Assembly (NCBI GenBank): GCA_030691385.1
Contig: JAUYEI010000124.1
Coordinates: forward strand, 1-53,600
From: Azonexus sp.
Lineage (GTDB): Bacteria > Pseudomonadota > Gammaproteobacteria > Burkholderiales > Rhodocyclaceae
Direction of reading: 5' to 3'
Length of the DNA: 53,600 nucleotides
The notes beneath the pieces were generated by a model. That model had not been told where the DNA came from and made no database searches. It worked only from the letters and a program-made list of their open reading frames with translations. This document shows, in pieces, positions 1 through 53,600 of the stretch. Each line of letters opens with the position of its first letter. Within the stretch, counting starts at the first letter, position 1. The position numbers were made by a program, and so were the translations under genes.

Positions 1-58
1 TCGCGCCGGCCATCCCGCCCAGACGCACCATCAGCCGCGTCCAACTGAGGTTTCAAGG
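1..58. repeat. Right end of a MITE-like element, cut by the window edge
   Basis: These 58 bases match the last 58 bases (53523-53580) of the complete element near the other window end, with only a few mismatches. Both end in the terminal inverted repeat CCAACTGAGGTTTCAAGG. The left part of this copy lies outside the window. It is followed directly by a degenerate copy of the dispersed bipartite element. Confidence 0.75.
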
Positions 59-94
59 TTCAATTTTGGCCGTTTTTTCCGGTTCACCGTGGCA
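59..94 (-). repeat. Dispersed bipartite palindromic element, degenerate copy
   Basis: Read on the minus strand the stretch gives CCACGGTGAACCGGAA followed by an A-rich run and GGCCAAAATTGAA. It keeps both halves of the element seen intact at 10512-10550, 19646-19684 and 46591-46630, but the palindromes are imperfect. It abuts the MITE end at position 58. Confidence 0.55.
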
Positions 95-125
95 GTGACA
101 TTGGCAACTGCTCAGTCACGTCAGA

Positions 126-9628: not shown

Positions 9629-10126
9629 ATGGGGACCCGACCAGCCATGATCGGCATGCCCAATCGGGGTTTCACCCTGATCGAACTGGTCATCACCGTC
9701 GCCATCGTCGGCATTCTGGCGATGACGGCGATGCCGATCATCGAGATGACGGCCAAGCGGCAGAAGGAAGTGGAACTGCGCGCCGCCTTGCGGGAGATTC
9801 GCGGTGGTATCGACGCCTATCGACGCGCCGTGGACGAGGGCAAGCTCGAGAAGAAGGTTGACGAAAGCGGCTATCCGCGCCGCCTCGAAGAACTGGCCAA
9901 AGGCGTCGAAAACAGGCTGGATCCGAACAAGGCCAAGCTCTATTTCCTGCGCCGCCTGCCGCGCGACCCGTTTGCCGATGACCCGGCGCTGCCGGCGGAA
10001 TTGACCTGGGGCAAGCGCAGCTATGCCAGCCCGCCCGATGCGCCGGTCGAAGGCGCCGATGTGTTTGACGTCTATTCGCTGGCCAAGGGCGTCGGCCTCA
10101 ATGGCACGCCGTACCGGGAGTGGTGA
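9629..10126 (+). CDS. GspG-like pseudopilin
   Basis: A 165-residue prepilin-like protein. The leader ends in a glycine before the cleavage motif G/FTLIELVITVAIVGILAM, with Glu at mature position 5, followed by the usual hydrophobic helix. The C-terminal part has the LPRDPF motif typical of GspG-family pseudopilins, but a calcium site cannot be confirmed by eye. Three in-frame ATGs are possible (9629, 9647, 9656). The two later ones give a more usual short leader, and GGGGA lies about 10 bases before 9647. The gene follows the secretin by 18 bp and the next pseudopilin starts 3 bp after its stop, so they are co-transcribed. Confidence 0.88.
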   Translation: MGTRPAMIGMPNRGFTLIELVITVAIVGILAMTAMPIIEMTAKRQKEVELRAALREIRGGIDAYRRAVDEGKLEKKVDESGYPRRLEELAKGVENRLDPNKAKLYFLRRLPRDPFADDPALPAELTWGKRSYASPPDAPVEGADVFDVYSLAKGVGLNGTPYREW

Positions 10127-10129
10127 GGC

Positions 10130-10510
10130 ATGACCTCGCGTAAAAAAGGCTTCACGCTGATCGAGCTGCTCGTCGTCATGTCGGTCATCGCCACGCTGCT
10201 CACCATCGCCGTGCCGCGCTATTTCCAGCATCTCGACCGGGCCCGCGAAGCCTCGCTGCGCGAATCGCTGGCTGTCATGCGCGACGCCGTCGACAAATAT
10301 CGCGGCGACACCGGGCGCTACCCGGAAACGATTGAAGAGCTGGTCACCAAGCGCTACCTGCGCAAGGTGCCGCCGGACCCGATCACCGAAAGCACCGAAA
10401 CCTGGATCATCGTCCCGCCGCCGGACGAACCCGGCCAGCGCAAGGTCTGGGACATCCGCAGCGGGGCCGAAGGGCAGGGGATCAGCGGCAGCGATTATTC
10501 GACATGGTGA
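10130..10510 (+). CDS. GspG-like pseudopilin (short)
   Basis: A 126-residue pseudopilin with a very short basic leader (MTSRKKG) before FTLIELLVVMSVIATLLTI, Glu at mature position 5, then a GspG-like tail: RGDTGRYPETIEELVTKRYL, KVPPDPIT and an aromatic end. In type II systems GspG is the major subunit of the short periplasmic pseudopilus. Two G-like genes sit next to each other here and a third at 47491-47895, so which is the major subunit is open. It is translationally close to its neighbours (3 bp after the previous stop), and the dispersed palindromic element begins 1 bp after its stop codon. Confidence 0.9.
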   Translation: MTSRKKGFTLIELLVVMSVIATLLTIAVPRYFQHLDRAREASLRESLAVMRDAVDKYRGDTGRYPETIEELVTKRYLRKVPPDPITESTETWIIVPPPDEPGQRKVWDIRSGAEGQGISGSDYSTW

Positions 10511-10511
10511 A

Positions 10512-10550
10512 CTCCCACGGTCAACCGGAAATTTTGGCCAAAAATGAAAT
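10512..10550 (+). repeat. Dispersed bipartite palindromic element, intact copy
   Basis: The copy starts CTCCCACGGTCAACCGGAA and continues ATTTTGGCCAAAAATGAAAT. It contains two adjacent palindromes: CGGTcaACCG and ATTTTGGCCAAAAT. It is nearly identical to 19646-19684 and, inverted, to 46591-46630. It fills the gap between two pseudopilin genes and ends on the likely start codon of the third, so it forms that gene's translation initiation region. Confidence 0.85.
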
Positions 10551-11070
10551 GCGCCGCCAGGCCGGCTTTACCTTCATCGGCCTGATGTTCGCCGTCGCCA
10601 TCGCCGGCATTGCGCTGGCCGGCACCGGCGCACTGTGGCACATGGAAAGCCGGCGCGAGAAGGAAAAGGAACTGCTGTTCATCGGCGAGGAGTATCGCCG
10701 CGCCATCGGCAGCTATTACGATTACAACAAATCGCCCGGCGCCGTAAAACAGTTTCCCAACAAGCTCGAAGACCTGCTGCAGGACAAACGTTTCCCCAAC
10801 CCGACCCACCACCTGCGCCGCCTCTATCGCGACCCGATGACGGCCGATGGCGAGTGGGAATTGATCAGGCAGGAAGGCCGCATCATGGGCGTCGCCAGCC
10901 GGTCGCCAGACAAGCCGATCAAGGTGGCGGGATTCACCGCCGAACAGGGCGAGTTCGAGGGCGCCGCGAGTTATACCGAATGGCGGTTCATCAGCAGTGG
11001 CGGGGGGCAGCAGGCAAACGCCAATCCCGGCGCGCAAACCGGCGGCGCCCAGCCCGCACCGGAACGCTAG
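10549..11070 (+). CDS. Pseudopilin-like protein lacking Glu5
   Basis: A 173-residue protein when started at ATG 10549 (MRRQAG before FTFIGLMFAVAIAGIAL). The frame extends up to 10504, but that start would place the dispersed repeat inside the protein, and the short basic leader is typical of prepilins. Mature position 5 is Gly instead of Glu. From memory, Gly here recurs in some betaproteobacterial pseudopilin-like families with the same EKELLFIGEEYRRAIGSYY region, so it may be a minor tip subunit. The tail is Gly/Ala/Pro-rich. It is the last gene of the secretin operon. Confidence 0.8.
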   Translation: MRRQAGFTFIGLMFAVAIAGIALAGTGALWHMESRREKEKELLFIGEEYRRAIGSYYDYNKSPGAVKQFPNKLEDLLQDKRFPNPTHHLRRLYRDPMTADGEWELIRQEGRIMGVASRSPDKPIKVAGFTAEQGEFEGAASYTEWRFISSGGGQQANANPGAQTGGAQPAPER

Positions 11071-11166: not shown

Positions 11167-13512
11167 ATGGGCAAGGGAAAAACCCGCCAATCCGCTCCCG
11201 CGGCCGGTCGCTCGGCCATGCCGGGCAATCTGCAATTCATTCTCGATCAGGGCATTTCCCTGCTCCAGCAGGGGCAACAGGCCCCGGCCGAGGTCTATTT
11301 CCGGCAGGTGTTGACGGCCGTGCCGCAGCATCTCGATGCGCTGCAGTTTCTCGGCGTCATCGAATACCAGAAAGGGCGCTTCGCGGCGGCGGCTGAACTG
11401 CTGCAACAGGCCATCGATCTGGCGCCCGATGCGCCGGGCCTGCACTGCAACCTGGGCCTGGCGCAGCAGGAACTCGGCCACCCCGAACAGGCACTGGCCA
11501 GCTACGACCGGGCGCTGGCCCTGACGCCGAAATTCGTCGAAGCGCTCAACAATCGGGGCAATGTCCTGCGCGAACTCGGGCGGCTCGCCGAATCCGCCGC
11601 CAGCTACCGGCGCGCCCTGACCTCGCGGCCCGATTTCATCGAAGCGCTCTTCAACCTCGGCATCACCCAGATCGCCCAAGGCCAGGCCGACCAGGCCCTG
11701 ACTCCGCTGGCCCGCTGCCTGCGGCTGGCACCGGGGCATCTCGGCGCCTGGGGCCAGTACGGCGTCGCCCTCATGGCGCTCAACAAACAGGCCGATGCCC
11801 TGAGCTGCTTCGAGCGCATTCTTGCGCACACGGCCAACGATGCCGAGGCGCACTACTGGCGCGGCAACGCGCTGCTCGCGCTCGGCCGCCCTGAGGAGGC
11901 GCTGCAGGCCTACGGCAACGCGGCGCAGATTCGCCCCGACATTCCGGAAGTGCACTACAACATCGGCAACGTGCTGCTCGATCAAGGCCGGGTGGAAGAG
12001 GGCATCGCCGCCTTCAACCAGGCGCTGGCCCGCCGGCCCGCCTTCCCCGAGGCGCTCTACAACCGCGGCGGCGCCGAACAGGACCTTGGGCGCTACGACG
12101 ATGCAGCGGCCACCTACGAGCACCTGCTGAGCTTGGTGCCGGACCATCGCTACGCCCTCGGCAGGCTTTTCCATTGCCGGCAATTCGTCGCCAACTGGCG
12201 GCGCCACGCCGAACAGCGCAGCGCCTTGGCGGCCGGCGCCGACGGCGTCGTCCGCGACATGCCTTTCCCTTTCCTCGCCGTGAGCGACGACCCGGCGCTG
12301 CAATTGCGCTGCGCCCAAGCGTACACGGCCGCCAGGCATCCGCCGGCCGCCACCCCGCTGTGCAGCGGCCGGCCCTACGCTCACCCGCGCCTTCGTCTCG
12401 CCTACGTCTCGGCCGATTTTTGCGAGCACGCCCTGAGCTACCTGCTGGCCGGCGTCTTCGAGGCGCACGACCGGGCCCGATTCGAAGTCTGGGGTGTTTC
12501 GCTGAAACCCGGCGACGGCAGCGCCATGGCCGCCCGGGTGACCACCGCCTTCGAGCATTTCATCGACGCCTCGGCCCTGAACGACGACGAAGTCGCCCGC
12601 CAGCTACGCGACCTGGAGATCGACATCGCCATCGACCTCACCGGCCACACCCAGGATGCCCGGACCGCCATCTTCGCGGCGCGGCCGGCGCCGGTCCAGG
12701 TCAATTACCTCGGCTTCCCCGGCAGCATGGGGGCGGCCTACATCGACTACATCATCGCCGACGACTTCGTCATCCCCGAGGCGGCGCGCCCGCACTACGC
12801 CGAGCAGGTCGTCCATCTGCCCGACTGCTTCCAGGGCAACGACGACCGGCGCGCCATCGATCCTCAGCCACAAACGCGCACTTCCCACGGTCTACCGGAA
12901 AAATCCTTCGTTTTTTGTGCCTTCAACAACACCTACAAACTGACGCCGGAATTCTTTGATATCTGGATGCGCCTGCTCGCCGCCGTACCGGACAGCGTGC
13001 TCTGGCTGGCCAGCGTCGACGCCAGCGTGCAGCGCAATCTGTGCGCCGAGGCCGAACGGCGGGGCGTCGCGCCCGAACGCCTGGTCTTCTCGCCGCGCAT
13101 CCGCTATGCCGAGCACCTCGCACGCCTGCAACTGGCCGACCTCTTTCTCGACACCTTGCCCTTCAACGCCGGCACCACGGCGAGCGACGCCCTGTGGGCC
13201 GGCGTCCCGGTCCTCACCTGCGCCGGCCGCGCCTTCTCGGCGCGCATGGCCGGCAGCCTGCTGCGCGCCCTCGGCCTGCCCGAACTGATCACCGGCAACC
13301 TCGCCGCCTACGAGGCGCGGGCCCTCGAACTCGCCGTGAATCCGGCCGCCCTGGGCGAACTCCGGGCGCGCCTGGCCAATAACCGGGCAACCCATCCGCT
13401 GTTCGACACCCGGCGCTTCACGCGCCATCTGGAAGCTGCCTACACCAGCATGTGGACTCGCCAGCAACAGGGCGAGGCGCCGGCAGCAATTCGCGTAACC
13501 CCGCTAGTGTAG
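11167..13512 (+). CDS. TPR protein with O-GlcNAc transferase (SPINDLY/OGT) catalytic domain, copy 1
   Basis: A 781-residue soluble protein. About ten tetratricopeptide repeats occupy residues 20-340 (units such as NLGLAQQELGHPEQALASYDRAL). The OGT-like glycosyltransferase region starts near LRLAYVSADFCEHALSYLL (about 400) and includes PAPVQVNYLGFPGSMGA, FNNTYKLTPEFFDIW and NAGTTASDALWAGVPVLTC. The last is the nucleotide-sugar pocket of the family; the His and Lys residues important in OGT are kept (CEH, YKL). It probably transfers a sugar to protein Ser/Thr, donor unknown. No signal peptide, so likely cytoplasmic. A close paralogue follows after 75 bp. A stretch near residue 572 (12881-12915) resembles the dispersed element. 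Confidence 0.9.
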   Translation: MGKGKTRQSAPAAGRSAMPGNLQFILDQGISLLQQGQQAPAEVYFRQVLTAVPQHLDALQFLGVIEYQKGRFAAAAELLQQAIDLAPDAPGLHCNLGLAQQELGHPEQALASYDRALALTPKFVEALNNRGNVLRELGRLAESAASYRRALTSRPDFIEALFNLGITQIAQGQADQALTPLARCLRLAPGHLGAWGQYGVALMALNKQADALSCFERILAHTANDAEAHYWRGNALLALGRPEEALQAYGNAAQIRPDIPEVHYNIGNVLLDQGRVEEGIAAFNQALARRPAFPEALYNRGGAEQDLGRYDDAAATYEHLLSLVPDHRYALGRLFHCRQFVANWRRHAEQRSALAAGADGVVRDMPFPFLAVSDDPALQLRCAQAYTAARHPPAATPLCSGRPYAHPRLRLAYVSADFCEHALSYLLAGVFEAHDRARFEVWGVSLKPGDGSAMAARVTTAFEHFIDASALNDDEVARQLRDLEIDIAIDLTGHTQDARTAIFAARPAPVQVNYLGFPGSMGAAYIDYIIADDFVIPEAARPHYAEQVVHLPDCFQGNDDRRAIDPQPQTRTSHGLPEKSFVFCAFNNTYKLTPEFFDIWMRLLAAVPDSVLWLASVDASVQRNLCAEAERRGVAPERLVFSPRIRYAEHLARLQLADLFLDTLPFNAGTTASDALWAGVPVLTCAGRAFSARMAGSLLRALGLPELITGNLAAYEARALELAVNPAALGELRARLANNRATHPLFDTRRFTRHLEAAYTSMWTRQQQGEAPAAIRVTPLV
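12881..12915 (+). repeat. Possible degenerate dispersed element inside the OGT gene
   Basis: CTTCCCACGGTCTACCGGAA followed by an A-rich and T-rich run matches the first half of the element in 17 of 19 bases; the GGCC palindrome is lost. It encodes the family-conserved LPE motif, so convergence is possible. The paralogue at 15170-15195 lacks the match at the DNA level. Confidence 0.35.
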
Positions 13513-13563
13513 TGATGCATGCTGTGAGGCACTTTATGTGCTGAATAGCGTGCATCACTACAC
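13507..13563. repeat. Long inverted repeat between the two OGT genes
   Basis: The arms GTGTAGTGATGCATGCT (13507-13523) and AGCGTGCATCACTACAC (13547-13563) pair in 16 of 17 positions; the loop has a further GCAC/GTGC stem. The left arm includes the stop codon of the first OGT gene (13510-13512). No T tract follows, so this is not a standard intrinsic terminator. It may act in transcript processing or stabilisation, or be a miniature element. Confidence 0.8.
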
Positions 13564-13587
13564 AAAGTCCTGATCGAGAACGCCACC

Positions 13588-15804
13588 ATGCAAACCAGCC
13601 AATCGAATCCACAAGCCCTGTTCGGTCGTGCCCTAGAACTTCACCAGGCCGGCCGGATCGGCGAAGCCGAAAACGCCTATCGCCAGGTGCTCAAGGTGCA
13701 GCCGGAAAACCCCGGCGCCATCTTTCTCTTTGGCCTCTGCCACCATCAGCGCGGCGACCACGAATCGGCCATCACGCTGATGGACATCGCCCTCGACATG
13801 AACCCGGCCATGCCGCAGGCCCATTACAACCGCGGCCTCGCCCTGCACGAACTGGGACGTTACGATGAAGCGGTGGCCAGCTACGAGAAGGCGATCGGGC
13901 TGCAGTCTTCGTATCCCCAAGCCTGGAATAATCGCGGCAACGCCCTCAAGGAACTGGATCGCCTGCCCGAGGCGCTCGCCAGTTACGACCGGGCCATCGC
14001 GCTGGCGGCGGATTTTGCCGAGGCGTATACCAATCGCGGCAACGTGCTGAAAGAAATGCGGTTTTTTGACGAGGCGCTGGCCAGTCACGATCGGGCGTTG
14101 CGCCTGCGACCGGACTACGCCGAAGCCCACTGCAATCGGGGCAACGCCCTCAATGCGCTCAAACGCCTTGACGAAGCCATTGCTGCCTATGACCGGGCGA
14201 TCGTGCTCAAGCCGGATTTCATCGATGCCTGCATCAATCGTGGCGATGCCCTGCATCAACTGGATCGCAAGGACGACGCGCTACGCAGCTTCGAGCTGGC
14301 CATCGCCCGCAAGCCTGATGCCGCTGAAGCCTATGAAATGCGAGCCAATCTCTTCCTGTCGGTCAAGCGTCATGCCGAGGCGGCCGACGATTTCGAACGA
14401 GCCTGCCGGCTGGATAAAAAACTGGCCTCGCGGGTCGTCTGGCAACTGCTGCAAACCCGTTTGACCCTGTGCGACTGGCACGACATCGATCAATGGCGTG
14501 CCTTGATCGAGCGCGAGGAAGCTCTTGGCTGGCAGGCCGCATCGCCGTTCGCCGCCTTGTCCATTCTTGGCTCGCCGGCGCAGCAACTCGACCACAACCA
14601 GCGCTATGTTGCCCGCTGGCTGCCCGCCGACAAGGTGCCGCTGTGGCAGGGTGAAATCTACGCCCACCAACGCCTGCGGGTTGGCTACTTCTCGTCGGAC
14701 CTGCGCAACCATGCGGTTGCCTACCTGACTGCCGGCCTGTTCGAGCAGCACGACCGCGAGCGCTTCGAAGTCCATGCCTTCTACTTCGGGCCGGCCAGCG
14801 ACGACCCCTGGCACCTGCGCCTGAAATCCGCTTTCGAGCAGTTTCACGAGATCAGGGAGTTGTCGGACCGGGAGCTTGCCTCGCTGATCCGCAAGCTGGA
14901 AATCGACATCCTCGTCGACCTCAACGGCCACACCCAGGGAGCGCGTACCGATGTGCTCGCCATGCGGCCGGCGCCGGTGCAGGTCAATTACATCGGCTAC
15001 CCCGGCAGCATGGGGGCCGATTACATTGACTACGTCATCGCCGACCCGGTCGTCATTCCGGCCGAAGCGCGCCGGCATTACAGCGAAAAGACCGTCTGGC
15101 TGCCCGACACCTTCCAGGTCAACGACAACCGCAAGGAGATTGCCGAAGCAGGGCGTTCCCGGTCGGAACTCGGCCTGCCCGAAAGCGGCTTCGTCTTCTG
15201 CTGCTTCAACAATTCCTACAAGATCACCCCGGCCGAGTTCGACATCTGGGTGCGCCTGCTGCAGCAGCTCGACGGCAGCGTACTCTGGCTGGCCGAGGCC
15301 GACCCCGTGGCTACCGCCAACCTGCGGCGCGAGGCCGCCCAGCGCGGGGTGGACGCCAGCCGCCTGATCTTCACCGAACGCAGGCCATTGGCCGACTATC
15401 TGGCCAGCTACCGGCAGGCCGATCTCTTTCTCGACACCTTCGGCTACAACGCCGGCACCACGGCCAGCGATGCGCTGTGGGCCGGCCTGCCCGTGCTTGC
15501 CTGCCTGGGCGAAACCTTCGCCCAGCGCATGGCCGGCAGCCTGCTTAACGCCGTCGGCTTGCCCGAACTGGTGACCGAAAGCCACGGTGAATACGAGGCG
15601 CTCGCGCTGAGCCTGGCGACGGACCCAACCCGCCTGGCGACCCTGCGCGAACGCCTGGCCAGCAACCGGACGACCCATCCGCTGTTCGACACCCGGCGTT
15701 TCACGCGCCATCTGGAGCAAGCCTACCTCGCCATGCAGCAACGCGTCGATGCCGGGTTACCGCCGGATCATCTGGTCATCGCCGCTGAGTCCTCGCCAGC
15801 CTGA
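13588..15804 (+). CDS. TPR protein with O-GlcNAc transferase (SPINDLY/OGT) catalytic domain, copy 2
   Basis: A 738-residue paralogue of the upstream gene. It has about eight tetratricopeptide repeats (residues 5-290, with repeated ASYDRAIAL-type units) and an OGT-like region from about 365 onward: LRVGYFSSDLRNHAVAYLTAGLF, VQVNYIGYPGSMGADYIDY, CCFNNSYKITPAEFDIW and NAGTTASDALWAGLPVLACLG. The RNH His and SYKI Lys match positions important in eukaryotic OGT. The TPR units are more uniform than in copy 1 and the N-terminal acceptor-binding part differs, so the two may glycosylate different targets. It starts at ATG 13588, 24 bp after the intergenic inverted repeat, and ends convergently with hipA, 49 bp away. 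Confidence 0.9.
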   Translation: MQTSQSNPQALFGRALELHQAGRIGEAENAYRQVLKVQPENPGAIFLFGLCHHQRGDHESAITLMDIALDMNPAMPQAHYNRGLALHELGRYDEAVASYEKAIGLQSSYPQAWNNRGNALKELDRLPEALASYDRAIALAADFAEAYTNRGNVLKEMRFFDEALASHDRALRLRPDYAEAHCNRGNALNALKRLDEAIAAYDRAIVLKPDFIDACINRGDALHQLDRKDDALRSFELAIARKPDAAEAYEMRANLFLSVKRHAEAADDFERACRLDKKLASRVVWQLLQTRLTLCDWHDIDQWRALIEREEALGWQAASPFAALSILGSPAQQLDHNQRYVARWLPADKVPLWQGEIYAHQRLRVGYFSSDLRNHAVAYLTAGLFEQHDRERFEVHAFYFGPASDDPWHLRLKSAFEQFHEIRELSDRELASLIRKLEIDILVDLNGHTQGARTDVLAMRPAPVQVNYIGYPGSMGADYIDYVIADPVVIPAEARRHYSEKTVWLPDTFQVNDNRKEIAEAGRSRSELGLPESGFVFCCFNNSYKITPAEFDIWVRLLQQLDGSVLWLAEADPVATANLRREAAQRGVDASRLIFTERRPLADYLASYRQADLFLDTFGYNAGTTASDALWAGLPVLACLGETFAQRMAGSLLNAVGLPELVTESHGEYEALALSLATDPTRLATLRERLASNRTTHPLFDTRRFTRHLEQAYLAMQQRVDAGLPPDHLVIAAESSPA

Positions 15805-17643: not shown

Positions 17644-17681
17644 AAATTTCGGTTTTGGGCGTTTTTTCCGGTTGACCGTAG
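17644..17681 (-). repeat. Dispersed bipartite palindromic element, diverged copy
   Basis: On the minus strand it reads CCCTACGGTCAACCGGAA, then AAAACGCCCAAAACCGAAAT. The CGGTcaACCG half is intact, while the GGCC half has decayed to GCCC. It lies in the non-coding gap before the ankyrin gene. Confidence 0.65.
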
Positions 17682-17829
17682 GGGCAGCCGGTTGAAGGTG
17701 TAGTCAGAACGGCGAGTCGTCGGGAGTGCCATCATGCTCGTGTCTTGGCATTTGTCACCGTTCTGCAACAACAGGGTAACCAAGAGAGACTAAATTCAGG
17801 CGCTTAGCAAAATTTGCCAGCGAGCTGTC

Positions 17830-19640: not shown

Positions 19641-19645
19641 CGGCA

Positions 19646-19684
19646 CTCCCACGGTCAACCGGAAATTTTGGCCAAAATTGAAAT
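19646..19684 (+). repeat. Dispersed bipartite palindromic element, intact copy
   Basis: CTCCCACGGTCAACCGGAA then ATTTTGGCCAAAATTGAAAT. It is nearly identical to the 10512-10550 copy and also ends just before a gene start (ATG 19690). Both palindromes are perfect. Confidence 0.85.
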
Positions 19685-19689
19685 CTGCC

Positions 19690-21756: not shown

Positions 21757-23196
21757 ATGCAAGTCAAGAAAATCGTTTCCCTGTGTGCCGTCGCTTTCAC
21801 CGCCATGGCCGCTGGTCAGGCGTATGCCGCCATGAGCGCTGCCGAGCAGGCCATCGTCAACAATGCCGTCACCAACGGCCGCGTCCTCTTCATCTCTGGC
21901 GCTTCTGCCACCCAGAAGGGCTTCACCGGCATCATCGCCACGATGTTTACCGGTACCCCGATCCGCTTCGCCAATACCACTGCTTCCTCCAAGGACTTCG
22001 AAGCGGTCGCTGGCGTGCTGGCTGCCGGTAACGGTGCCTGGTCGGGTCAGAACGTCATCATCATCGACCGCGTCAAGGGCGGCTCGGTCTGGGGCGTCAA
22101 TCCGGTTGCCCGCGCCGAAGCTATCGAATCGCTGGCTGTGACCTCCGCCACCTGCGGCGCTACCGGTGCTGGTACCGCTGGTACCCCGTACGTCTGCTCG
22201 ACCACCCCGCTGGCTGGCTACATGGTGCCGGACGCTGGTGTTGCCGACATCGCCCCGGCCCTCTTCAAGGCCCCATACAACACCGAAGGCGAAACCGCTG
22301 CCGATTCCCTGACCGAAGCCGAGCTGGCCTCGATGTCCGCCACCCCGATCTACTCCCTGGCCTTTGGCGTGCCGGTTACCAAGAACGTTCCTTTGGTTAA
22401 CCTCAACAAGGCTGTCGTTTCTGCCATCATGACCGGCAACATCGGCACTTGGAAGCAGGTCGATGCCTCGCTGCCGGCCGACGACATTGTCGTTTGCCGC
22501 CGCGTGCCGGGTTCCGGTACCCAGTCTGTCGATAACCTGTATTTCGGCAACTATCCCTGCAGCGAAACCCTGGCTAACGTTCCGGCTGACCGTTACGCTA
22601 CTGGCGCCTGGGACGAAGCTGCCCGCAGCTTCACCGTTACCGGTGGCACGGGTGGCCTGGTGGTCGTCGAGAACTCCACTTCCGGCGACGTTCGCAACTG
22701 TCTGGACAAGGCTGTGACCGGCGGCACCTTCGCCGGCAAGGATCGTGACGGCAATGCCGTCGCCGTCGATTTCGGTGCTGGCGGCCACAAGGCCATCGGC
22801 GTCATGTCCATGGACAGCCTGAAGGATTCCAAGGCCTCCGGCAACTGGCAGTTCCGTTCGCTCGACGGCGCCGGCACCATCACCTGGGACAACACCGCCA
22901 TTGCTCCGGTTCTCACCGGCACCGGCAAGTTCCCGACCCTGGCCAGCCTGATCGACGGCACCTGGGACCTGCAGGGCTGGATCTCCTTCCAGATCCCGAA
23001 TCGCACGACCGGCGCCAAGAAGGCACTGGCTGAGGCATTCCTGCTGCAAGCCCAGAACCCGGCCATCCTGGCTTCCATCTCCGACCTGAAGAACGTTGCC
23101 GCCGCCATCCCGGGTGGCACGTACTCCGGTGCCCAGGTTATGCGCGCCCAGTACCTCAACAACAACCAGTGCGCCCCGCTGAACCGCAACTTCTAA
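21757..23196 (+). CDS. Exported PstS-like substrate-binding protein
   Basis: A 479-residue periplasmic-type protein. ATG 21757 has GGAGA 6 bases upstream; the frame opens 12 bases earlier with TTG. A signal peptide (about 1-25, ending GQAYA) leads into a phosphate-binding-protein-like fold. Recognisable parts are [17 protein letters not shown] near the N-terminus, [19 protein letters not shown] (resembling the PstS region that precedes the ligand site) and [19 protein letters not shown], which resembles the PstS Arg/Ser-Gly-Thr ligand loop. No ABC transporter genes are adjacent, so it may capture a ligand in the matrix or act as a sensor rather than feed a transporter. It lies downstream of the PEP-CTERM gene and ends in a strong terminator. 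Confidence 0.82.
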
Positions 23197-23277: not shown

Positions 23278-23760
23278 GTGCGCCCGGCAGGGCGCACTTA
23301 CTTGGCGGTGAAAGACCTCTACTCGCCCGACAAGGGGAAGCGTTAGCTGAACGGCAAGGGTGTCGCGGGCGACTGCGAATCTGAAGGAAGCCGAAGGCAA
23401 AGCGCTGGCCTGACGAACAGGAAGCGGATACGAGGCGGCGTAGCGGGGTGAGATGTCCCATATCATCAAAGCCCGAAACTTGTACGGGATGCTGTGACGT
23501 ATATCCGACAGGCATAAGCGTGAAGGTGGGTGCGTCATACCCGGGGAGATCCTCACGGGTGGAGGCGAAGGCGTACTCATTCACCCACCGCACCAAGGTG
23601 TTTGCGGACGGCACGGTACGGAAGAACAGCGCGTGACCTCAGGAGGACTGGTTCAGTCTCCGGGTGGCACCGGGGGAAGCGAGCCTATATGGATTCGAAT
23701 TTCTCGGGTACAAGATAAAGCGAGGGCGACAGCGACTGTCACTGCCCGCGAGCAAGATTC
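23278..23760 (+). mobile_element. Group II intron remnant: 5' RNA domains plus a fragment of the reverse transcriptase gene
   Basis: The remnant starts with the group II 5' consensus GTGCG and a GTGCGCCC/GGGCGCAC hairpin, and continues with domain I-like sequence (GGTGAAAGACC, GGCAAGGGTGTCGCGGGC, CTGAAGGAAGCCGAAGGC, GAACAGGAAGCGGATACGAG). At about 23685-23761 one frame encodes GFEFLGYKIKRGRQRLSLPA followed by SKIR, the late part of an intron reverse transcriptase/maturase. The body of the enzyme and the domain V-VI 3' end are absent, so an internal deletion (junction about 23620-23690) and loss of the 3' part made it inactive. It was probably inserted behind the terminator of the PstS-like gene. 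The 3' limit overlaps the end of hipA. Confidence 0.8.
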
Positions 23761-27255: not shown

Positions 27256-30200
27256 ATGAACCACGGTATCTATCGGCTGGTCTTCAACGTCGAGCGCAAC
27301 GCCTGGGTGGCGGTGGCGGAGTGTGTGCGCGGACGCGGCAAGAAGAGCACGCGCAAGCGGGTGGCGGCCGTGGTTCTCGGGGTGGCGGTGTCGTTCGCGG
27401 CGCTGGACGGCGCCTGGGCGGCGCGACCGGTGGGGGCTGTGGATTTGCCTATGCCCTCGGTGTCCCGGCCTTTCGTCTTTGCCGGTTCGGTCGATGGCGG
27501 CCAGCCGACGACGGCGATGATCAACGGCATCAATACGATGACGGTCACCACGAACGACCGCATTCTCGGCCTCAACTTCGACCGTTTCGATGTGGGCAGC
27601 GACGCGGCCTTCGTGCTCAAGCAGCCCGATGTGCTGTCGCGTGCCCTGTTCCGCATCTGGGACAGCGACCCCAGCCAGATTTACGGCAAGGTGACAGCCA
27701 ACGGCCAGCTTTACCTGATCAACCAGAACGGCATCCTGTTCGGCTCCGGCTCGCAGGTGAACGTCGGCGGCCTGGTCGCTTCGGCGCTCGGCATGTCGGA
27801 CACCATGATGAACCGGCTGTTGACCAGCGGCCTGCCGAGCGCCGCGGGCGACAGCCTGACTTTCAACTACGAGGGGAAAGTCGGCGATTTCAAGTCGACT
27901 GTGGTCGTTGAGACCGGCGCCACGATCAATACCCGGGACGGCGGCAAGGTGGTGCTGATCGCCCCCCGCTCGGTGACCAACGAGGGCAGCATCGGTGTCG
28001 ACGGTGGCGGCAGTGCCGAAACGATCCTGGCGGCCGGCGGCAAGGTCATCCTGACCGTGCCAGGCGATCCCAGCCTGCGTGGCATCCTGGTCGAGACGGA
28101 TTCGTTTACCGGCAAGGACAGTTTCGGCATCACCACGACGCTGGATGGCAAGGTGACCAACGCCGCCACCGGCGGCGTGAACATGGGCAAGGACGGCGTG
28201 GTGACGCTGGCCGGCCTGATCGTCAACCAGCAGGGCGTCGTCAATGCGACCAAAGCGGTCAATCTCAATGGCACGACGATGCTGGTTTCGGGGACGACCG
28301 AAACCGACCGCCTGACCATCAACCAGCGCGGCAGCGTGGCGCAGATCGACTGGGTTTCTGGCTTCAACGTCGGGTCGGGCAAGACGGTCGAATTCGTGCA
28401 GGCAGCGGGCGATGTCGCCTACAACTATGTCTTCGACCCGGACAAGAGCCTGGTCGATGGCTCCGGCAACAAGCTGGACAATCTGGCCGCCGGTCGTTCG
28501 CTGATCGACGGCGTGCTCAAGGCCAGCGGCCAGTTCGTGCTGGTCAACGAGTTGGGCATCGCTTTTGGCGCGAATGCCCGGGTGTCGGCCAACAATTTCG
28601 TCGCTTCGGCGCTCGGCATGAATCCGGACATCGTGTCGTCGGGCTTGCTCGGGCAGACCAACGTGCGTTCGCGCGCCTTCTATCTGAACCGGAGTTACGC
28701 GACTTTCGACAGCAGCGATGAAAGCACGGCGGCCGCCGACAAGGCGCGGGCGCTGAGCGAATATCGCCGTGCCACGGTCAACGTCGAAAATGGGGCAAAA
28801 ATCGAAAGTGCCAGCGGGGGCTACGTCATTCTCGCCGGCGGCAGCGTCAATCAGGCTGGCAGCATCAGCACGCCGAACGGCCAGGCGCTGCTCGCCGCCG
28901 GTGCCGACCTCTACCTGAAGCCGGGGTATTCGTCTGCCTTGCGCGGTTTCACAGCCGAGGTCAATCCGCTGCTGATCAAGGATGCCCACAAGAGCGGCGT
29001 CGACTCCCTGGTGGCGCTTTCCCGCGGCGCCGATGCGAATGCCGTGATCAACACCGGCTCGATCTCGGCCAGTTTCGGCGACATTTCCATGGTCGGCCAC
29101 CAGATCGTCCAGGCCGGTTCGCTCTACGCCTCGACCTCGGCATTGGCCAACGGATCGATCAATCTGAAGGCACGTGACATGGTGCTGATCGACTACACGA
29201 TCGATACCGCTACCGGAGATATTGCCGACAGCAGTTATTTCAAGATTGCCCGCGATTACGACGTCGATGGTGTGCTGGCCTATGACCAGAACCATACCAA
29301 TTCAGAGGAAGCGACCGAGTTCGTCTTTGGCAAGGATGGCGGCACGGTCAGCTTCACCGATGGCAGCCGCACGGAAATTGCCATTGATGGCAGCAACGGC
29401 AAGACCTTGACCGCCAGCCAGCATTTCGTCGCTTCGTCGGTGGCCGTGCAGGGCAAGAAAATCGTGGTTGGCGACGCCGACATCGTGGCCAAAGGGGGGA
29501 ATGTCGATTTTCGTTCGGCCGCGACGTTCAGCGAAAGCAATGCCTTCGTGAACGACACGATGACACCGGGCGTCGAAGGAACGGCGCAAAGCGATATCGG
29601 CATCTACGTGGCCGAGGGCGCGAAGATCGACGTTTCGGGGACCAGTGCGCAGAAATCGGTGCGCGACCTGTTCGTTGAGGTCGAGTTGCGCGGCGACCAG
29701 TTCGCCGACAACACGGTTCAGCGCAATGGTGTGCTGCGCGGCCAGAAAGCCTGGGTCGACATTCGCGACGCCGTCAAAATTGCCGACGTGAGCAGCTATT
29801 TCAACAATGTCGGCCTGACGGTCAACGAACTGGCGGCGACTGGCGGCACGATTTCGCTGGTGTCGACCGGCAACGTCATCGTCAAGAACGGCGCCACGCT
29901 GGATGTCTCGGGTGGTGTGGTCAATTACGCGGCGGGTAGCGTCGAGGAGTCGCGGCTACTGGCCGGACGCAAGTCCTATCGTCTGAACGATGCGCCGGTC
30001 TGGGCCGAGTATTTGTCACTGATCACGGCAACGCGCGAGGAAGTGGCTTATGTCGAAGGCAAGAGCGCCGGTACCGTCGAGATTCGCGGCAACCGCCTGG
30101 CCGTCGACGGGCAATTGCAGGCGAATACCACGGTGGGTACCCGCCAGCGCGAGATCGGCGATCCGGCGAGCAATCGCAGCGCGATTCCGCTGGGCGGGCA

Positions 30201-33200
30201 AATGATCGTCCAGGATGGCGGCCAGCATTACACCGTCGCCAATCGCGATACGGCCAGCAAAGCCGAGAAGGATGCTGCCTTCCTCCAGGCGCAGGTGGTG
30301 TTCGTCAAGGGGGCGGCCAACGCCGCCAGCGGGCTCGGGCAGGATAGTGCCGGGCCGGATCGGCTGGAGTTGTCGGAAACCCTGGTCGATGCCGGGTTCT
30401 CCCGTTTCTCGGTCACCAGCGACGGGCGGATCGACATTCCGGCGGAGATTTCGCTGAATCTGCCGGCCGGTGGCAAATTTGCCGCGGCCGGGCGCCAAGT
30501 CTATATGGCCGGCGACATCAGCGCGCCGGGGGGCGGCATCGAGTTGAAGACCGTCGACCGCAGTGCGTCGGTACCCGATGCGCCGAACGTTCTGGATGGC
30601 GTCTACTCGAATCTGGTCGTTGCCGATGGCGCCAGCCTGTCCACGTCCGGCGTCTGGGTCAACGATTTTCTCGACGGCGAACTGAGCACGGTGCCGCTGG
30701 CCTTGAACGGCGGCAAGATCGTTCTGAATTCGGCGCATGACCTCGATATCCAGCGCGGCAGCAGCATTTCCGTCGACGGTGGCGGCCAGGTCAACACCAC
30801 ACAGTCCCTCAAGAAGGGCAATGCCGGCTCGATCGCGCTGACCAGCGGCAGCGGCTTCGGTGAATTCGGGCTGGGCAACAGCCTGTTCCTCGATGGCACC
30901 CTGTCGGGGATGGCGCTCGGCAAGGGCGGTACGCTGTCGATCACCTCGGCGCAGGTCACGCTGGGCCACGCCGAAAGCGTCGATACCCGGGCGTGGAGTG
31001 ATGCCCGGCGGATCGAAGAAGGGCGCCAGGGCTTCGCGGCGACGACCGATCTGGTCGACCGTGGCGGTTTCTACAATTTCATTTTTACCGGAAATTCCCG
31101 GTTGACCGTGGAAGCGGGGCAGGTCGTCAAACCGGATCCGCTCAACTGGTCGCTGCTCGCCGTCGGCAACTACTTCAGGCGGCCGACCGGTAGCGCCATC
31201 GCCTCTTTCGCCGCAACCCAGGTTCTGCCCGAAGCGCTGCGCTCGGGAACGACGAGCATCAGCCTGGCGACGACCGATATCTACAACGGGCGTCTGACCG
31301 TGGCCGAAAACGCCTACGTCGGCGCTTCTGCCAAGGGTAGCGTGACCCTTGAAGCGGCCGGCCAGATGACCGTGCTGGGCACGCTGGAAGCCGCAGGCGG
31401 GACGATCAAGCTGGGTCGCGCCAAAATGACCAGTGCTCTGAATGCGGCGGTTCAAGGTGCCCTGATCGATGCCGGCAAGAAGCAGTCCGAATCGATCTAC
31501 CTCGGCGAGAACAGCAAATTGCTGGCCGGCGGCACGACGGTGCTCGATGCCGATACGCAGCAAGCGCTGGATGCCGGCGTTTCGGCCGGGCAGCTGCTGG
31601 CCCGGCAAGCCTATCGGGGCGAGGTGCTGGCCGGGGGGACGGTGAGCATCGATTCCGGCCTCGGCTACCTGATCATGCGCGACGGCGCGTTGATCGACGT
31701 CTCGGGCACGACCGGTACGCTGAATGCGGCGACGGCGACCGCAACCGGTTATACCTACGCGGCGCGGGCGCTGGGCAGCGCCGGTGGTACGGTCAGCCTG
31801 GCAGCGCATAGCGGCATGTTCCTCGATGGCAACTTCAAGGCCCGGGGCGGCAAGGATGCGCTCGGCGGTGTCTTCGCCCTGCGCTTTACGGCTGACCCGG
31901 TGAAGACGGAGGCCAATCCGTGGGGTGCCGGTCAGGGGCAGACTCAGGAGGTGATTGACGCGCTGACTCAGGGGCGCGTGCTGACGGTATATCAAACGGC
32001 GTCCACCGACGCCAGGAGCGGCCGGGAAAATCATGCCGGCTTGTGGCCGGCCGGCGTTAGCGCGGCCGATTACCTGGCCGGTAGCGCCGTGCTCGATGCG
32101 AAAACCCATAACGGCAAGGCGGCGCTCGATGTCGCGTTGTTGCAGGATTTCGGTTCGGTTAACGACGCCGCCTTTGGTTCGTGGTATCTGACCAGCCAGA
32201 GCGACATCGTGTTTGCCGGCAAGGTCGAGGCGACGGTCAATAACCATCTGAGCATGAATGCGGCGAACTTCAGGGCTGCCGACGATACGACCCATCTGAA
32301 CCTGACCGCGGCCACGGCCCGCCTCGGGAATTTCCGCAGCGGGGCCGGCGCTGCCGTTGCAGCGACGGTCGGCCTGGCCGATGCGTCGATCACTGCCCGC
32401 GACATCGGGCTGGTTGGCACCTTCAGCTGGAGCGGCTTTGACAACAGCACCTTCGCCAGCACCGGGGCCATCCATTTCGACAGCGTCCAGAACACGGTGA
32501 AAAACCGCGCCGACGGTCGTCTGTTCAACGGCCAGATGACGGCTTCCGGCGCGCTGACCTTTTCGGCGGCTCGCCTGAGCCCGTCGACCTATGGCGATTT
32601 CCGCATCGACCTGCTGGCCGATCCGAACGGCAGCGTTGCCATCACCCGGCCGGCGGGTGCCGCGGCCGACGCATCGCTCTCCCCCTACGGTCGACTGGAA
32701 TTTGCGGCCAAAAACATAAACCACGAGGGCACGGTTTCCGCACCGCTCGGCGAGGTCGTCTTCAATGCACCGGGCGGCACGGTGACGCTGGCGGCGGGGA
32801 GCAAGACCTCGGTGGCGGCGGATCGCAGCCTGCTCTTCGGGACCACCGGCGAATCGGGACGCAGCTGGAACTACCTGGGGGGCAAAGTTGAGGCTCTGCC
32901 GTCCAAGGGTATTGTGATCGATGCCGCCGTGTCGACAGTGCAGACCGGCGCCGTACTCGATCTCTCGGGCGGCGGCGAGGCGCTGGCCTGGGAATTTACC
33001 GCCGGTCCGGGCGGCAAGAACGATGTGCTCAATGGCTCGACGACGACCTTCGCCATCGTGCCGGGCTGGAACGGGGTCAGTGCGAGCGATGCCGAACTGC
33101 TGGCTGCTTATGCCACGGCCGGCGATGGTTCGCTGCCCCTGCTGAAGGTGGGTGACGCCGTCTCGCTGGGCGCCAACACGCTCGGCCTCGGTGGCAGTTA

Positions 33201-39610: not shown

Positions 39611-41344
39611 ATGAGAAACTTTGCACACTGGATGATGGCGGCGGCTAGCCTTGTTGCCCTGAACGCGCAGTCGGCGGACGGTTTCAATGCCGACGACTGG
39701 AAGCACAAGCAGAAAACCGTGATCGACACGACGGCCGAGGGCGTCGAGTTGAAGCTGGGCGCTGCCCAGTTGCCGCTGGCCTTGCGCCTGCACACCGGCA
39801 ATTTTGCCTTTGCCGAAGCCAAGCCGGACGGCAGCGATCTGCGCGTGACGGCCGCCGACGGCAAGACGCCGCTGCGTTTCCATATCGAAAAATATGATTC
39901 GACCAACGAGTTGGCGGTGATCTGGGTGCAACAGCCCAAGTTGGCGCCGCTGGCCAAGACGGACGCGGTCACGCTGTTGTGGGGCAACGACAAGGCAGCC
40001 GCTGCCAGCGATGCCAAGGGCAGCTACGATGCCGCCCAGAATCTCGTGCTGCATTTCTCCGATGAAGGCGTGGTGCAGGATTCCACGGTCAACCGGAATA
40101 ATCCGCAAAATTTCAAATCCCGGGCTGTCCCCGGCCCGCTCGGTGATGCGGCCAGTTTCGATGGCAGCAGCACTTTGCTTGTTCCGGCCTCGCCCTCGTT
40201 GAAGCTGATTACCGCCAACGGCCTGACTTTCACGGCGTGGATCAAGCCGGTGGCCAATGCTGCCGGCACGCTCTTCCAGCAGAGCGAGGGCGGCAAGAGC
40301 CTGGCCCTGGCGCTCAAGGGCGGCAAGCTGGTGGCCGTGGTCAATGGCAAGGAATTTCCGTCGAAGGCGACGGTGCTGGCCGATACCTGGCAGCACGTGG
40401 CGATGACCCTGATTGGCGGCAAGCTGACTTTCTACATGGAAGGTGCCGAAGCCGGCACGGCTGATATCGCGCTGGACGACACCGGCGGCGACATCCAGAT
40501 CGGTGCCGGTTTCCGTGGCGAACTCGACGAAGTGACACTGGCCGCGACCTCGCGTTCGGCCGACTACATCAAGGCCCTGCATGGCAGCCAGCAACCGGAC
40601 AGCCTGATGTACGCCGCCGAGGAAGAAGAGGCCGGTGAAGCCGCTTCCTACGTCGGCATCCTGCTCGGTGCGCTGACGCTGGACGGCTGGATCGTCATCG
40701 GCATTCTCGCCGTCATGGCCGTCATCAGCGTTGCCGTCATGATCGGCAAGACGATGTTCCTGGGCAAGGCGGAAAAGGCCAATGACGCCTTTCTCAACCG
40801 CTTCCGCGACAACCCGCGCAAGCTGTTGCAACCGGATTCGATGGATACCAAGGCGCTGAGTGAAGATGAGGCGATGCGCCATTCAACGATCTTCCGCTTA
40901 TACAAGATCGGCATCCAGGAAATGCATCACCGCTTCGACACCCAGACCAAAGGCGGTGTCGAAAACAAGCTCTCCGATGCGGCGCTCAATTCCATCCGCG
41001 CTGCCATGGATGCCGGGCTGGTCCGCGAAAACCAGCGTTTGAACAGCCAGATCGTGCTGCTCACCATCGCCATTTCCGGCGGCCCCTTCCTCGGCCTGCT
41101 CGGTACCGTGGTCGGCGTCATGATCACTTTCGCGGCGATTGCCGCGGCGGGCGACGTCAATGTGAACTCGATCGCGCCGGGTATCGCCGCCGCGCTGGTC
41201 GCCACCGTCGCCGGTCTGGCCGTGGCGATTCCCGCCCTGTTCGGCTACAACTGGCTGGCCATCAAGATCAAGAACGTGTCGGCCGACACCCAGGTGTTTG
41301 CCGACGAGTTCCTGACCAAGTCGGCCGAGCTGTACGCCGTCTAA
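39611..41344 (+). CDS. ExbB/TolQ/MotA-family proton channel fused to periplasmic DUF2341 and LamG-like domains
   Basis: A 577-residue multi-domain protein. ATG 39611 (MRNFAHWMM) was preferred to the in-frame TTG at 39602. A signal peptide (about 1-22) is followed by a DUF2341-like domain (about 40-135, LPLALRLHTGNFAFAE) and a concanavalin/LamG-like domain (about 150-320, FTAWIKPVANAAGTLFQQ, DTWQHVAMTLIGGKL, FRGELDEVTL). A transmembrane helix (about 345-375) leads to a MotA/TolQ/ExbB channel domain in the last 200 residues (ISGGPFLGLLGTVVGVMITF, IAPGIAAALVATVAGLAVAI). The channel normally uses the proton gradient to drive TonB or TolA. Fusion to a glycan- or protein-binding domain suggests that it senses or grips a surface partner. 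It heads a probable operon with two exbD genes and tonB. Confidence 0.88.
   Translation: MRNFAHWMMAAASLVALNAQSADGFNADDWKHKQKTVIDTTAEGVELKLGAAQLPLALRLHTGNFAFAEAKPDGSDLRVTAADGKTPLRFHIEKYDSTNELAVIWVQQPKLAPLAKTDAVTLLWGNDKAAAASDAKGSYDAAQNLVLHFSDEGVVQDSTVNRNNPQNFKSRAVPGPLGDAASFDGSSTLLVPASPSLKLITANGLTFTAWIKPVANAAGTLFQQSEGGKSLALALKGGKLVAVVNGKEFPSKATVLADTWQHVAMTLIGGKLTFYMEGAEAGTADIALDDTGGDIQIGAGFRGELDEVTLAATSRSADYIKALHGSQQPDSLMYAAEEEEAGEAASYVGILLGALTLDGWIVIGILAVMAVISVAVMIGKTMFLGKAEKANDAFLNRFRDNPRKLLQPDSMDTKALSEDEAMRHSTIFRLYKIGIQEMHHRFDTQTKGGVENKLSDAALNSIRAAMDAGLVRENQRLNSQIVLLTIAISGGPFLGLLGTVVGVMITFAAIAAAGDVNVNSIAPGIAAALVATVAGLAVAIPALFGYNWLAIKIKNVSADTQVFADEFLTKSAELYAV
40079..40118 (+). repeat. Dispersed element-like sequence inside the ExbB-fusion gene
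   Basis: GATTCCACGGTCAACCGGAA is an exact match to 16 bases of the element core and is followed by TAATCCGCAAAATTTCAAAT, a decayed second half with the TTTCAAAT end retained. It encodes DSTVNRNNPQNFKS within the LamG-like part. Confidence 0.5.
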
Positions 41345-41764: not shown

Positions 41765-41767
41765 GCC

Positions 41768-46575: not shown

Positions 46576-46590
46576 ACCAAGGGTTCCGGC

Positions 46591-46630
46591 TTTTTGATTT
46601 TGGCCAAAATTTCCGGTTGACCGTGGGAAT
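46591..46630 (-). repeat. Dispersed bipartite palindromic element, intact copy (inverted)
   Basis: On the minus strand it reads ATTCCCACGGTCAACCGGAA then ATTTTGGCCAAAATCAAAAA. It lies in the 69-bp space between the converging phoB-like and transglycosylase genes, where it could fold near both 3' ends. Both palindromes are perfect. Confidence 0.85.
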
Positions 46631-46644
46631 GGTCTGGAAGCCGC

Positions 46645-47259: not shown

Positions 47260-47490
47260 GGTCGAATGATGGTCCAGTTGTCCGTCCAGCTTAACCGGCC
47301 TGTGTTACCGGAAATTGACCGGCGGATGAGCAGGTTCGGCGAGCCTTTGGCGAGCGCGGCGTCATGGTCGTGTAACGCAGCTTGCATAGAATTATGGTCC
47401 AGATTCCTAATTTCCTTTGGCGAACCCGTGTTGCACAAACTAATTTCCCGAGTCCTTGGCCGCTTTTTTGCACCCGCTGCCGTTTCCCGG

Positions 47491-50799: not shown

Positions 50800-51547
50800 C
50801 CGCCTGACCCTCTTCATTCACCCGCAGCGCGTCGTTCTCGAACGGCAGCCGTGGCGCGGTGCGCTCTCCCGCCAGGCGGCAGAGGTGGCGCCGCCGGCCG
50901 CCGGCGAAGCCGACTGGCAGCCGGTGCTGGCCGCCGCCGAGGCTTTGCTCAAGAGCGCCGGCCAGGGCGCTGCCCTGCGCATCGTCGTTGCCGACCATCT
51001 GGTCCGCTACGCCTTGCTGCCGTGGAGCGAGATGCTGACCGGCCAGGCGGCCCGACTCGACATGGCCCGTGCCCTGTTGCGCAATGCGCTGGGCGAGCGG
51101 GCAGCGGCGCTGGAGATGGCCCTCGACCGCCCGGCCTTCGGCAAGAACGGCCTTGCCGCCGGTATCGACCGCCAGTTGCTGGCCGGCCTGCGCGCTGCCG
51201 CCAAGACCCGGCGCCTGCGCCTGAGCAGCGTGCAACCGCGCCTGATCGCCGAACTCGCGGCGCAGCAAACGCAGCTAAATGATGGCTGGCTGGCCTGCCT
51301 TGACTTTGGCTGGCTGACCCTGGCCGGCATTCGTGACGGCGAGATTGCCAGCCTGCGCAATCACCGCGCCAGTATGGCGGAGCCAGCCATTCTGGCGGGT
51401 GAACTGGCCGGGCTGCTGGCTGCCGAGTCTGCTACGGTCAACGGGAAAAAAGTGCTGATTTCAACATCTGCCGGCGCCGCTCCCAAGTTGGCCGGTGGCT
51501 GGGAAACGACGCTGGTCGCGCCGGTTGCCGGAGGCGCCCATGCGTGA
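50780..51547 (+). CDS. PilM/GspL-like cytoplasmic actin-fold protein
   Basis: A 255-residue protein starting at GTG 50780 inside the end of gspE. It is shorter than PilM (about 350) and shows the actin-like layout: a beta-rich N-terminal half (LTLFIHPQRVVLERQPWRGA, LRIVVADHLVRYALLPW) and a second lobe with WLACLDFGWLTLAGIRDGEI. In MSHA-type and similar systems this protein (MshI/PilM) docks the ATPase to PilN. Similarity is weak and the call rests largely on order: it is followed by PilN-, PilO- and PilP-like genes. The stretch at 51432-51464 resembles the dispersed element. Confidence 0.7.
   Translation: MSLSWLDRLTLFIHPQRVVLERQPWRGALSRQAAEVAPPAAGEADWQPVLAAAEALLKSAGQGAALRIVVADHLVRYALLPWSEMLTGQAARLDMARALLRNALGERAAALEMALDRPAFGKNGLAAGIDRQLLAGLRAAAKTRRLRLSSVQPRLIAELAAQQTQLNDGWLACLDFGWLTLAGIRDGEIASLRNHRASMAEPAILAGELAGLLAAESATVNGKKVLISTSAGAAPKLAGGWETTLVAPVAGGAHA
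51432..51464 (+). repeat. Possible degenerate dispersed element inside the PilM-like gene
   Basis: CTACGGTCAACGGGAAAAAA and GTGCTGATTTCAA. Fourteen of sixteen bases match the first half; the second half is not convincing. It is reported because it is at the same kind of in-frame position (ATVNGKKVLIS) as the others. Confidence 0.3.
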
Positions 51548-53211: not shown

Positions 53212-53297
53212 CGGGCTGATGGCCAGACCTTCGAAGCTGCGGATCGGTCTTGTTTACGTCATATGACAAAAAACATCATGCCGGATGATGAAATTAT

Positions 53298-53580: not shown

Positions 53581-53600
53581 ATTATTTTTGGCCAGGCTTG

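Follow-up and report, generated by a model that had tools for sequence, protein, structure and literature searches.

Discrimination of self-DNA by short genomic signals is, in the sections of PMC12616744 that treat it, known from only two families, the Pasteurellaceae and the Neisseriaceae, and these are likewise the two families named in the corresponding part of PMC7811141. According to portions of PMC1626085, PMC12616744, PMC3630211 and PMC7811141, the signals of both (USS and DUS, respectively) occur in either orientation, prefer non-coding DNA with many copies in coding regions as well, are regularly spaced and form inverted pairs; the same portions describe a very strong consensus, an origin by point mutation and variants within a family. 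The density of USS and DUS is given as about 1 per kb in the relevant passage of PMC1626085.

The window, i.e. the whole stretch of 53,600 nucleotides that was analysed, is one contig (C84) of a genome of 3,448,501 bases (3.45 Mb) in 129 contigs, and it carries copies of a dispersed element that, judged from its sequence and by analogy with the above systems, is probably a genomic DNA-uptake signal of an Azonexaceae genus, in other words a short sequence by which cells in natural transformation recognise DNA of their own kind. We put the probability of this reading at about 0.8. The genus most likely belongs to the Azonexaceae (Rhodocyclales, Betaproteobacteria). With somewhat less assurance, we consider it likely that the element represents a third self-DNA uptake system, in Betaproteobacteria: Haemophilus-like by convergence, probably ancestral, with about four dialects and repeated loss.

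The USS of the Pasteurellaceae (Hin-USS AAGTGCGGT and Apl-USS ACAAGCGGT), as far as the published excerpts describe them, resemble the element in having a short core and two 3' AT-rich segments at roughly helical-turn spacing, in lying in both orientations with an intergenic preference, many coding copies and regular spacing, and in showing no insertion in tested genes and variants between subclades. The element differs in its core, which is CGGTCRAC and not AAGTGCGGT or ACAAGCGGT, and in the further letters that follow the core, which place the AT segments farther from it. It is also less dense, and its host is a betaproteobacterium. Moreover, GCGG is not required in the element: the dialect of the window has ACGG, and the relative G072 often has TGCGGTC.

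The DUS of the Neisseriaceae (GCCGTCTGAA and its dialects, with ComP as the receptor) is, in the part of PMC3630211 that compares the dialects, similar to the element in that dialects follow phylogeny around a constant inner core, inverted pairs occur occasionally and some family members are without the signal. In contrast, the logos of the element show no CTG inner core of the kind contained in the 10-12-mer DUS, and the element has the flanking AT segments that the DUS lacks according to a passage of PMC1626085. Since its letters are those of neither family, the element is not a member of the USS or of the DUS, and the likeness to both probably arose by convergence. The Neisseriaceae belong to a different order of the Betaproteobacteria from the host of the element. 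The preliminary description of the window had found no match to known uptake signals; this holds for the letters, which correspond to the core of no known USS or DUS, but not for the behaviour, which does fit. The element shares with that class hundreds of near-consensus copies, the lack of a strand or replichore preference, a preference for non-coding DNA together with many coding copies, regular spacing with close inverted pairs, an origin by point mutation (at coding sites) and clade-restricted dialects with a shared core. The density of about 1 per kb, a descriptive figure and not a strict criterion, is not reached.

The abundance of the element was estimated in two ways. The 18-mer CCACGGTCAACCGGAAAT with at most two mismatches occurs at 412 places genome-wide, 209 forward and 203 reverse, and the reversed-pattern control at none. 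A weight matrix, trained on a 453.6-kb sample made up of 20 stretches of 20 kb and the window, gives 97 sites with scores over 14 bits in that same sample, as compared with 0 in a Markov control, and extrapolation gives about 740 full-length copies in the genome, i.e. one per 4.7 kb. Together with the hundreds of copies in many relatives (see below), the 412 places bear out the earlier suggestion of a conserved genome-wide element that is not a simple REP hairpin. They also answer the doubt, raised at the same time, that there might be no further copies or that these might stem from one recent duplication. Thirteen stretches contain the exact 38-mer of the element; they come from six metagenome-assembled genomes, whose labels are Rhodocyclaceae, Azonexaceae, Betaproteobacteria, Gammaproteobacteria or Proteobacteria.

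Within the window, CCACGGTCAACCGGAA with at most three mismatches has 13 matches against 0.63 expected, a number that none of 100 shuffles reaches, and the weight matrix finds 11 copies. The highest score belongs to the intergenic copy at 19643..19686 (+, 63.9 bits), which has an exact second palindrome, as does the copy between two convergent genes at 46589..46632 (-, 60.6 bits). Two others are intergenic, at 55..98 (-, 53.5 bits, core CACGGTGAACCGG) and 17644..17687 (-, 49.9 bits). The copy at 10509..10552 (+, 61.0 bits) spans the gap of about 38 bp between two prepilin-like genes; our home-made gene call makes it coding, as a 5' extension of the second of these genes, and its actual location is intergenic. 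Coding copies lie at 40077..40120 (+, 53.7 bits), where the encoded peptide contains STVNRNNPQNFKS, and at 51426..51469 (+, 41.4 bits), where the related G014 stretch aligns without gaps across the copy. A reading frame of 12.3 kb holds three more: one in antisense at 31074..31117 (-, 50.0 bits) and two diverged ones at 28766..28809 (+, 34.6 bits) and 32679..32722 (+, 25.9 bits). The remaining coding copy, at 12879..12922 (+, 21.0 bits), is also diverged. The five copies listed in the preliminary description, at 10512-10550 (+), 19646-19684 (+), 46591-46630 (-) and, in diverged form, at 59-94 (-) and 17644-17681 (-), were all recovered at these positions. Three of them had been taken as intact copies sharing the second palindrome; ATTTTGGCCAAAAT is indeed exact at 19646 and 46591, but the copy at 10512 reads ATTTTGGCCAAAAAT. 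Neither of the two diverged copies has ATTTTGGCCAAAAT.

The motif is about 40 bp long and has sharp edges, the information spanning positions -4 to +35, where 0 is the first C of CCACGGTCAACCGG. It has an A at -4 and a T at -2 upstream, followed by the core CGGTCRAC (CGGTCAAC at positions 3-10), which is almost invariant, its weakest position being 8 (A 0.89, G 0.10). Downstream of the core, CGG occupies positions 11-13 and a GGCC-like stretch positions 21-24; there are three AT-rich segments, at 14-19, 25-30 and 32-35. In other words, AT-rich segments are found about one and about two helical turns downstream of the core. The first of them is mostly A-rich and not AAATTTT, and the second keeps AAAA(T).

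The unit had been described as two adjacent palindromes, a model that was rejected on the pair counts over the 97 sites. All four pairs of the first palindrome are complementary in 65 of these sites, and all seven pairs of the second in only 2. At all 11 pairs the complementarity is about what independent columns would give, and the proposed search for compensatory changes in both palindromes revealed no covariation (e.g. 44 observed against 39.8 expected). The second palindrome is one version of the AT-segment layout.

The same layout can be followed in relatives by the AT fraction at fixed distances from CGGTCRAC, with 360 reversed-word sites pooled from all 14 sampled genomes as a control. 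The fraction at +26 to +30 is 0.66-0.81 in 11 genomes against 0.34 in the control, and that at +15 to +19 is 0.45-0.78 in 11 genomes against 0.39; in G043 this first segment shows no enrichment over the control word (0.45 against 0.45). For the third segment (+32 to +35), a raised fraction is confined among the sampled genomes to G000, G015, G050 and G072. G001, G007 and G014, with 9, 11 and 7 sites, respectively, show a weak layout.

Our gene calls (398 genes, coding fraction 0.885) place 50 of the 97 sites in coding sequence, 44 between genes and 3 at an edge, with some of the coding copies in doubtful 5' extensions such as that at 10509 of the window. Intergenic DNA makes up 11.5% of the sequence, and the 44 sites represent a 3.9-fold enrichment (p 7e-17). 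The intergenic copies are also nearest to the consensus (median 61 bits, as compared with 46 for the coding ones). The coding copies lie in several frames and on both strands and encode varied peptides, e.g. TVNREKQPKMK and HGQPEKTAKNE, the letters varying with the codon context. The spacing within the 21 stretches is more regular than expected: none of 76 neighbour gaps is below 500 bp, against 9.3 expected under uniform placement, and the coefficient of variation of the gaps is 0.67 against 0.91, below all of 2000 random sets. Close inverted pairs do exist elsewhere, e.g. at 11631 (-) and 11653 (+) of G000:C89. In the complete genome G015, 113 copies are forward and 121 reverse, and the forward copies show no regional bias by chromosome half (59 against 54, p 0.71).

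Among the genomes searched, the element is restricted to one genus. A 16-mer of the element, with two mismatches, has 248-689 copies in 11 of the 76 genus genomes and far fewer in the rest; among 399 genomes drawn from the order, none outside the genus exceeds 18. Further members are enriched in CACGGTCRAC, e.g. G056 (1302), G002 (1243) and G009 (634) against controls of 34-39 in these three. The counts are somewhat too high because a palindromic site is scored once per strand; such sites make up 20 of 102 in the G002 sample. The sites in question (stretches L065-L069, L085 and L092) are perfect 14-bp palindromes of the CACGGTCGACCGTG type, with the core on both strands. A dialect-free pattern of the layout, CGGTCRAC-N6-WWW-N6-WWWWW, whose controls give 0-2 matches in genus genomes, has at least 100 matches in 36 of the 76 genus genomes, 20-99 in 9 and fewer than 20 in 31, the maximum in a relative being 535. 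When applied to 285 genomes from the family's other genera, an even draw from a larger group, the pattern yields 0-3 matches, in line with its control.

A comparison of the sampled genomes shows that the core and the layout are common to the relatives, with variation in the letters of positions 1-2 and 11-14. The forms are CCACGGTCAACCGG in the window, often TGCGGTC in G072, CACGGTCGACCGTG in G002 and GGTCGACGCC at the gatA site of G004 and G005, two genomes that also carry the layout. The gatA site is at the same place, without gaps, in all 29 genomes read (G039 has no match at the cut-off). Its core has decayed in the element-poor G010, G014, G001, G024 and G007 and is intact in G027 despite the element-poor genome. 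In a gatA tree of 29 genomes, built after removal of the element columns, nine genomes with the window dialect cluster together (support 91/79) with G072 apart, and genomes with other dialects fall to either side of the midpoint root, whose support is weak (74/64). The groups were set by the 16-mer and 10-mer counts, and "low" includes G029, which is rich by the layout pattern (213). This grouping of the dialects suggests that the element is ancestral to the genus and was lost repeatedly.

Outside the genus, G540, G584 and G550, which belong to other genera of the family, have single copies near the window dialect, e.g. CGGTCAACCGGAAATTTCGACCAAATTT, in genomes otherwise without the element; these could mark DNA acquired from the genus. 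An origin from a plasmid or phage was rejected: the exact 16-mer occurs in 12 viral stretches with one copy each, and the 43-nt consensus has no match in 72,556 plasmid records.

Proteins that organise the chromosome or the nucleoid bind dispersed sites such as matS, parS and those of SlmA and Noc, and the element could be pictured as a site of this kind, spread over the chromosome. Its copies are genome-wide, evenly spaced and in both orientations, its helically phased AT segments would suit a bending protein, and competence would not be needed, so that the ComEA and ComEC gaps described below would be irrelevant. We nevertheless consider such a role unlikely. Half of the copies lie inside genes, and the forward copies are without regional bias in the complete genome G015. 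A change of dialect at hundreds of sites would be odd for an essential organiser, as would the near-absence from 31 of the 76 genus genomes. Near-complete matches over about 40 bp in so many copies are, moreover, anomalous for ordinary protein sites, an argument put forward in a section of PMC1626085.

How a signal came to its sites bears on the reading as an uptake signal. In the part of PMC1626085 concerned, Redfield and colleagues showed the Haemophilus USS to be non-insertional by seeking gaps in orthologues. The stretches at hand yielded 65 orthologous pairs for such a comparison, 25 with the element in both members and 40 in which the relative lacks the form of the window; 21 of these 40 are gapless and 19 gapped. 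Among the coding pairs, as defined by our gene calls, 17 of 23 are gapless. Of the six gapped ones, two are dtd against G007 (with 6 gap positions), two come from a single site with 27 additional bases in G014, one has 10 bases fewer in G001 and one is poorly matched. Gaps are also found in 11 intergenic pairs, in one of which the relative is without 31 of the 40 bases. The gapless pairs represent four genomic sites, i.e. dtd, an ApbE-like gene (below the curated cut-off of the family) and genes in stretch L043 and in the window; four gapless pairs scored as intergenic belong to the dtd site of G050, where the gene was missed by the caller. The relatives G005 and G008, scored at dtd as being without the element, have the form of their own dialect at that position.

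Five enzymes, picked for apparent conservation from 33 listed copies above 40 bits, were compared with relatives in the PDB. Dtd and GatA show no gaps at the element. In MurD the peptide encoded by the element has 3 residues fewer than in the relatives, with 5 more immediately downstream; PdxA is shorter by 3-4 residues, and MurU has 4 more at the element. The roughly 13 extra residues predicted for a 40-bp insertion are thus seen in none of the five. Judged from these alignments, the coding copies at the tested sites arise by point mutation and not by insertion of the whole element.

These comparisons weigh against a short mobile element that inserts between and within genes, types of which include REPIN, MITE and the Rickettsia-palindromic-element. 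REP/REPIN and MITE-type repeats are dispersed, short and partly palindromic, and so is the element; its sharp edges about 40 bp apart, its hundreds of copies and its intergenic preference would all fit, as would the gapped alignments at the intergenic sites compared, including the relative without 31 of 40 bases. Unlike such repeats, however, the element shows no insertion at the tested coding sites, and its second palindrome is not conserved. The mobile unit envisaged in the preliminary description finds no support at coding sites, where no copy compared has a gap of about 40 bp in relatives. In addition, the letters of the copies vary with codon context, dialect forms sit at the same place in relatives and clusters closer than 500 bp are absent from the sample, which makes this origin improbable. 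Least probable of all is a role as the operator of a global regulator of transcription or as an RNA hairpin that functions at the ends of genes, since the 44 intergenic copies among 97 and the complete first palindrome in 65 of 97 are set against the half of the copies that lie inside genes and in both orientations, covariation in neither palindrome, a number of sites far above that of an ordinary regulon and the lack of an Rfam match at any copy of the window, on which an RNA element was rejected.

An uptake signal presupposes competence, and we searched the genus for the corresponding machinery. ComEC is found in 71 of the 76 genus genomes and in 51 of the 51 good ones. Its match is in two pieces in the element-rich G036, G060 and G013 and in the element-poor G057 and G023. 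In two of these, G036 and G057, the split is at about the same residue (profile position 26-29), with the pieces 32-34 kb apart on one contig (G036:C33:109525-144033 and G057:C1:2218607-2251879), and the ComEC matches of G060 and G010 begin at profile position 26-27; comEC may be a site of integration for a mobile element. ComEA family matches occur in 75 of the 76 genomes and exceed the cut-off in 67. In the element-rich G072 (complete) and G026 (96% complete) there is no ComEA over the cut-off, the profile matches lying below it. Pilins of the GspH/FimT type are present in all 16 genomes tested, and each of nine genomes has 9-19 pilin-like genes. The genome of the window has ComEC (comEC), a ComEA family member over the cut-off (comEA) and the pilins. 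ComEC, ComEA and the pilins occur in element-rich and element-poor genomes alike. No receptor candidate among the FimT/GspH loci of the 16 genomes (FimT judged by eye) follows the abundance of the element, and no pilin type is limited to element-rich genomes among the 30 of 125 pilin loci compared in nine genomes.

Several of these results count against an uptake signal. The ComEA gaps, the split ComEC and the gapped coding pairs slightly lower the odds, and the partial comparison brought up no receptor candidate that separates rich from poor genomes, both of which have ComEC and ComEA. The density is below the USS/DUS figure, 6 of 23 coding pairs and 11 intergenic pairs are gapped, MurU and MurD have 4 and 5 additional residues, the first AT segment of G043 is at the control level and the gatA core of G027 is intact. 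In open-licence papers we found no uptake or transformation experiments in these bacteria; nor, judged partly from titles and abstracts, did any paper connect uptake sequences to the Rhodocyclales, Rhodocyclaceae, Dechloromonas or Azonexus.

The receptor binding, the kinking at the AT segments, the biased uptake and the drive that we infer would work as follows. A putative DNA receptor, located at the type IV pilus or close to it, would bind the core and the flanking letters, and the AT segments would ease kinking or melting of the DNA, whereby a loop could enter the secretin. Kinking at the AT segments and entry of a loop into the secretin have been proposed for Haemophilus in parts of PMC12616744 and PMC7811141. 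Better-matching fragments would be taken up and recombined more often, and copies would therefore build up through biased transformation, without a local function of each site. A shift of the receptor preference would give rise to dialects, and with a loss of preference the copies would decay.

If this reading is correct, a third origin makes the evolution of self-specific uptake a comparative subject, for which there have so far been only two cases. It would also bear on the reason for the spacing of about one turn between the AT segments of the Haemophilus signal: features that recur across independent origins would point to the mechanics, and those that differ to the receptor. The genus, in which 36 genomes are rich, 9 are intermediate and 31 are poor, is a natural experiment for finding the receptor, and it equally suits a test of whether DNA exchange drops as dialects diverge. 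Natural competence would furthermore be predicted in Dechloromonas/Azonexus-type bacteria, which are relevant to water treatment and bioremediation.

A few other features of the window deserve mention. Four prepilin-like N-methylation signals are found at 9662-10623 and 47488-47559, and two of the genes concerned flank the copy at 10512. A second repeated stretch, CGTCCAACTGAGGTTTCAAGG, is present with its complement and diverged forms at 1-71, 53291-53314 and 53523-53593, i.e. at both ends of the contig; it sometimes directly adjoins an element, also in stretch L030, and may be part of a longer repeat that broke the assembly. A group II intron match (Rfam RF02001, 135 bits) at 23363-23534 is near a long reading frame at 21757-23196. 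Finally, there are two apparent tandem duplications, one at 12545-15617 with repeats 2283 bp apart and 70-73% identity, and one at 41360-41904 consisting of two adjacent frames of 134 residues with 79% identity over 137 nt.
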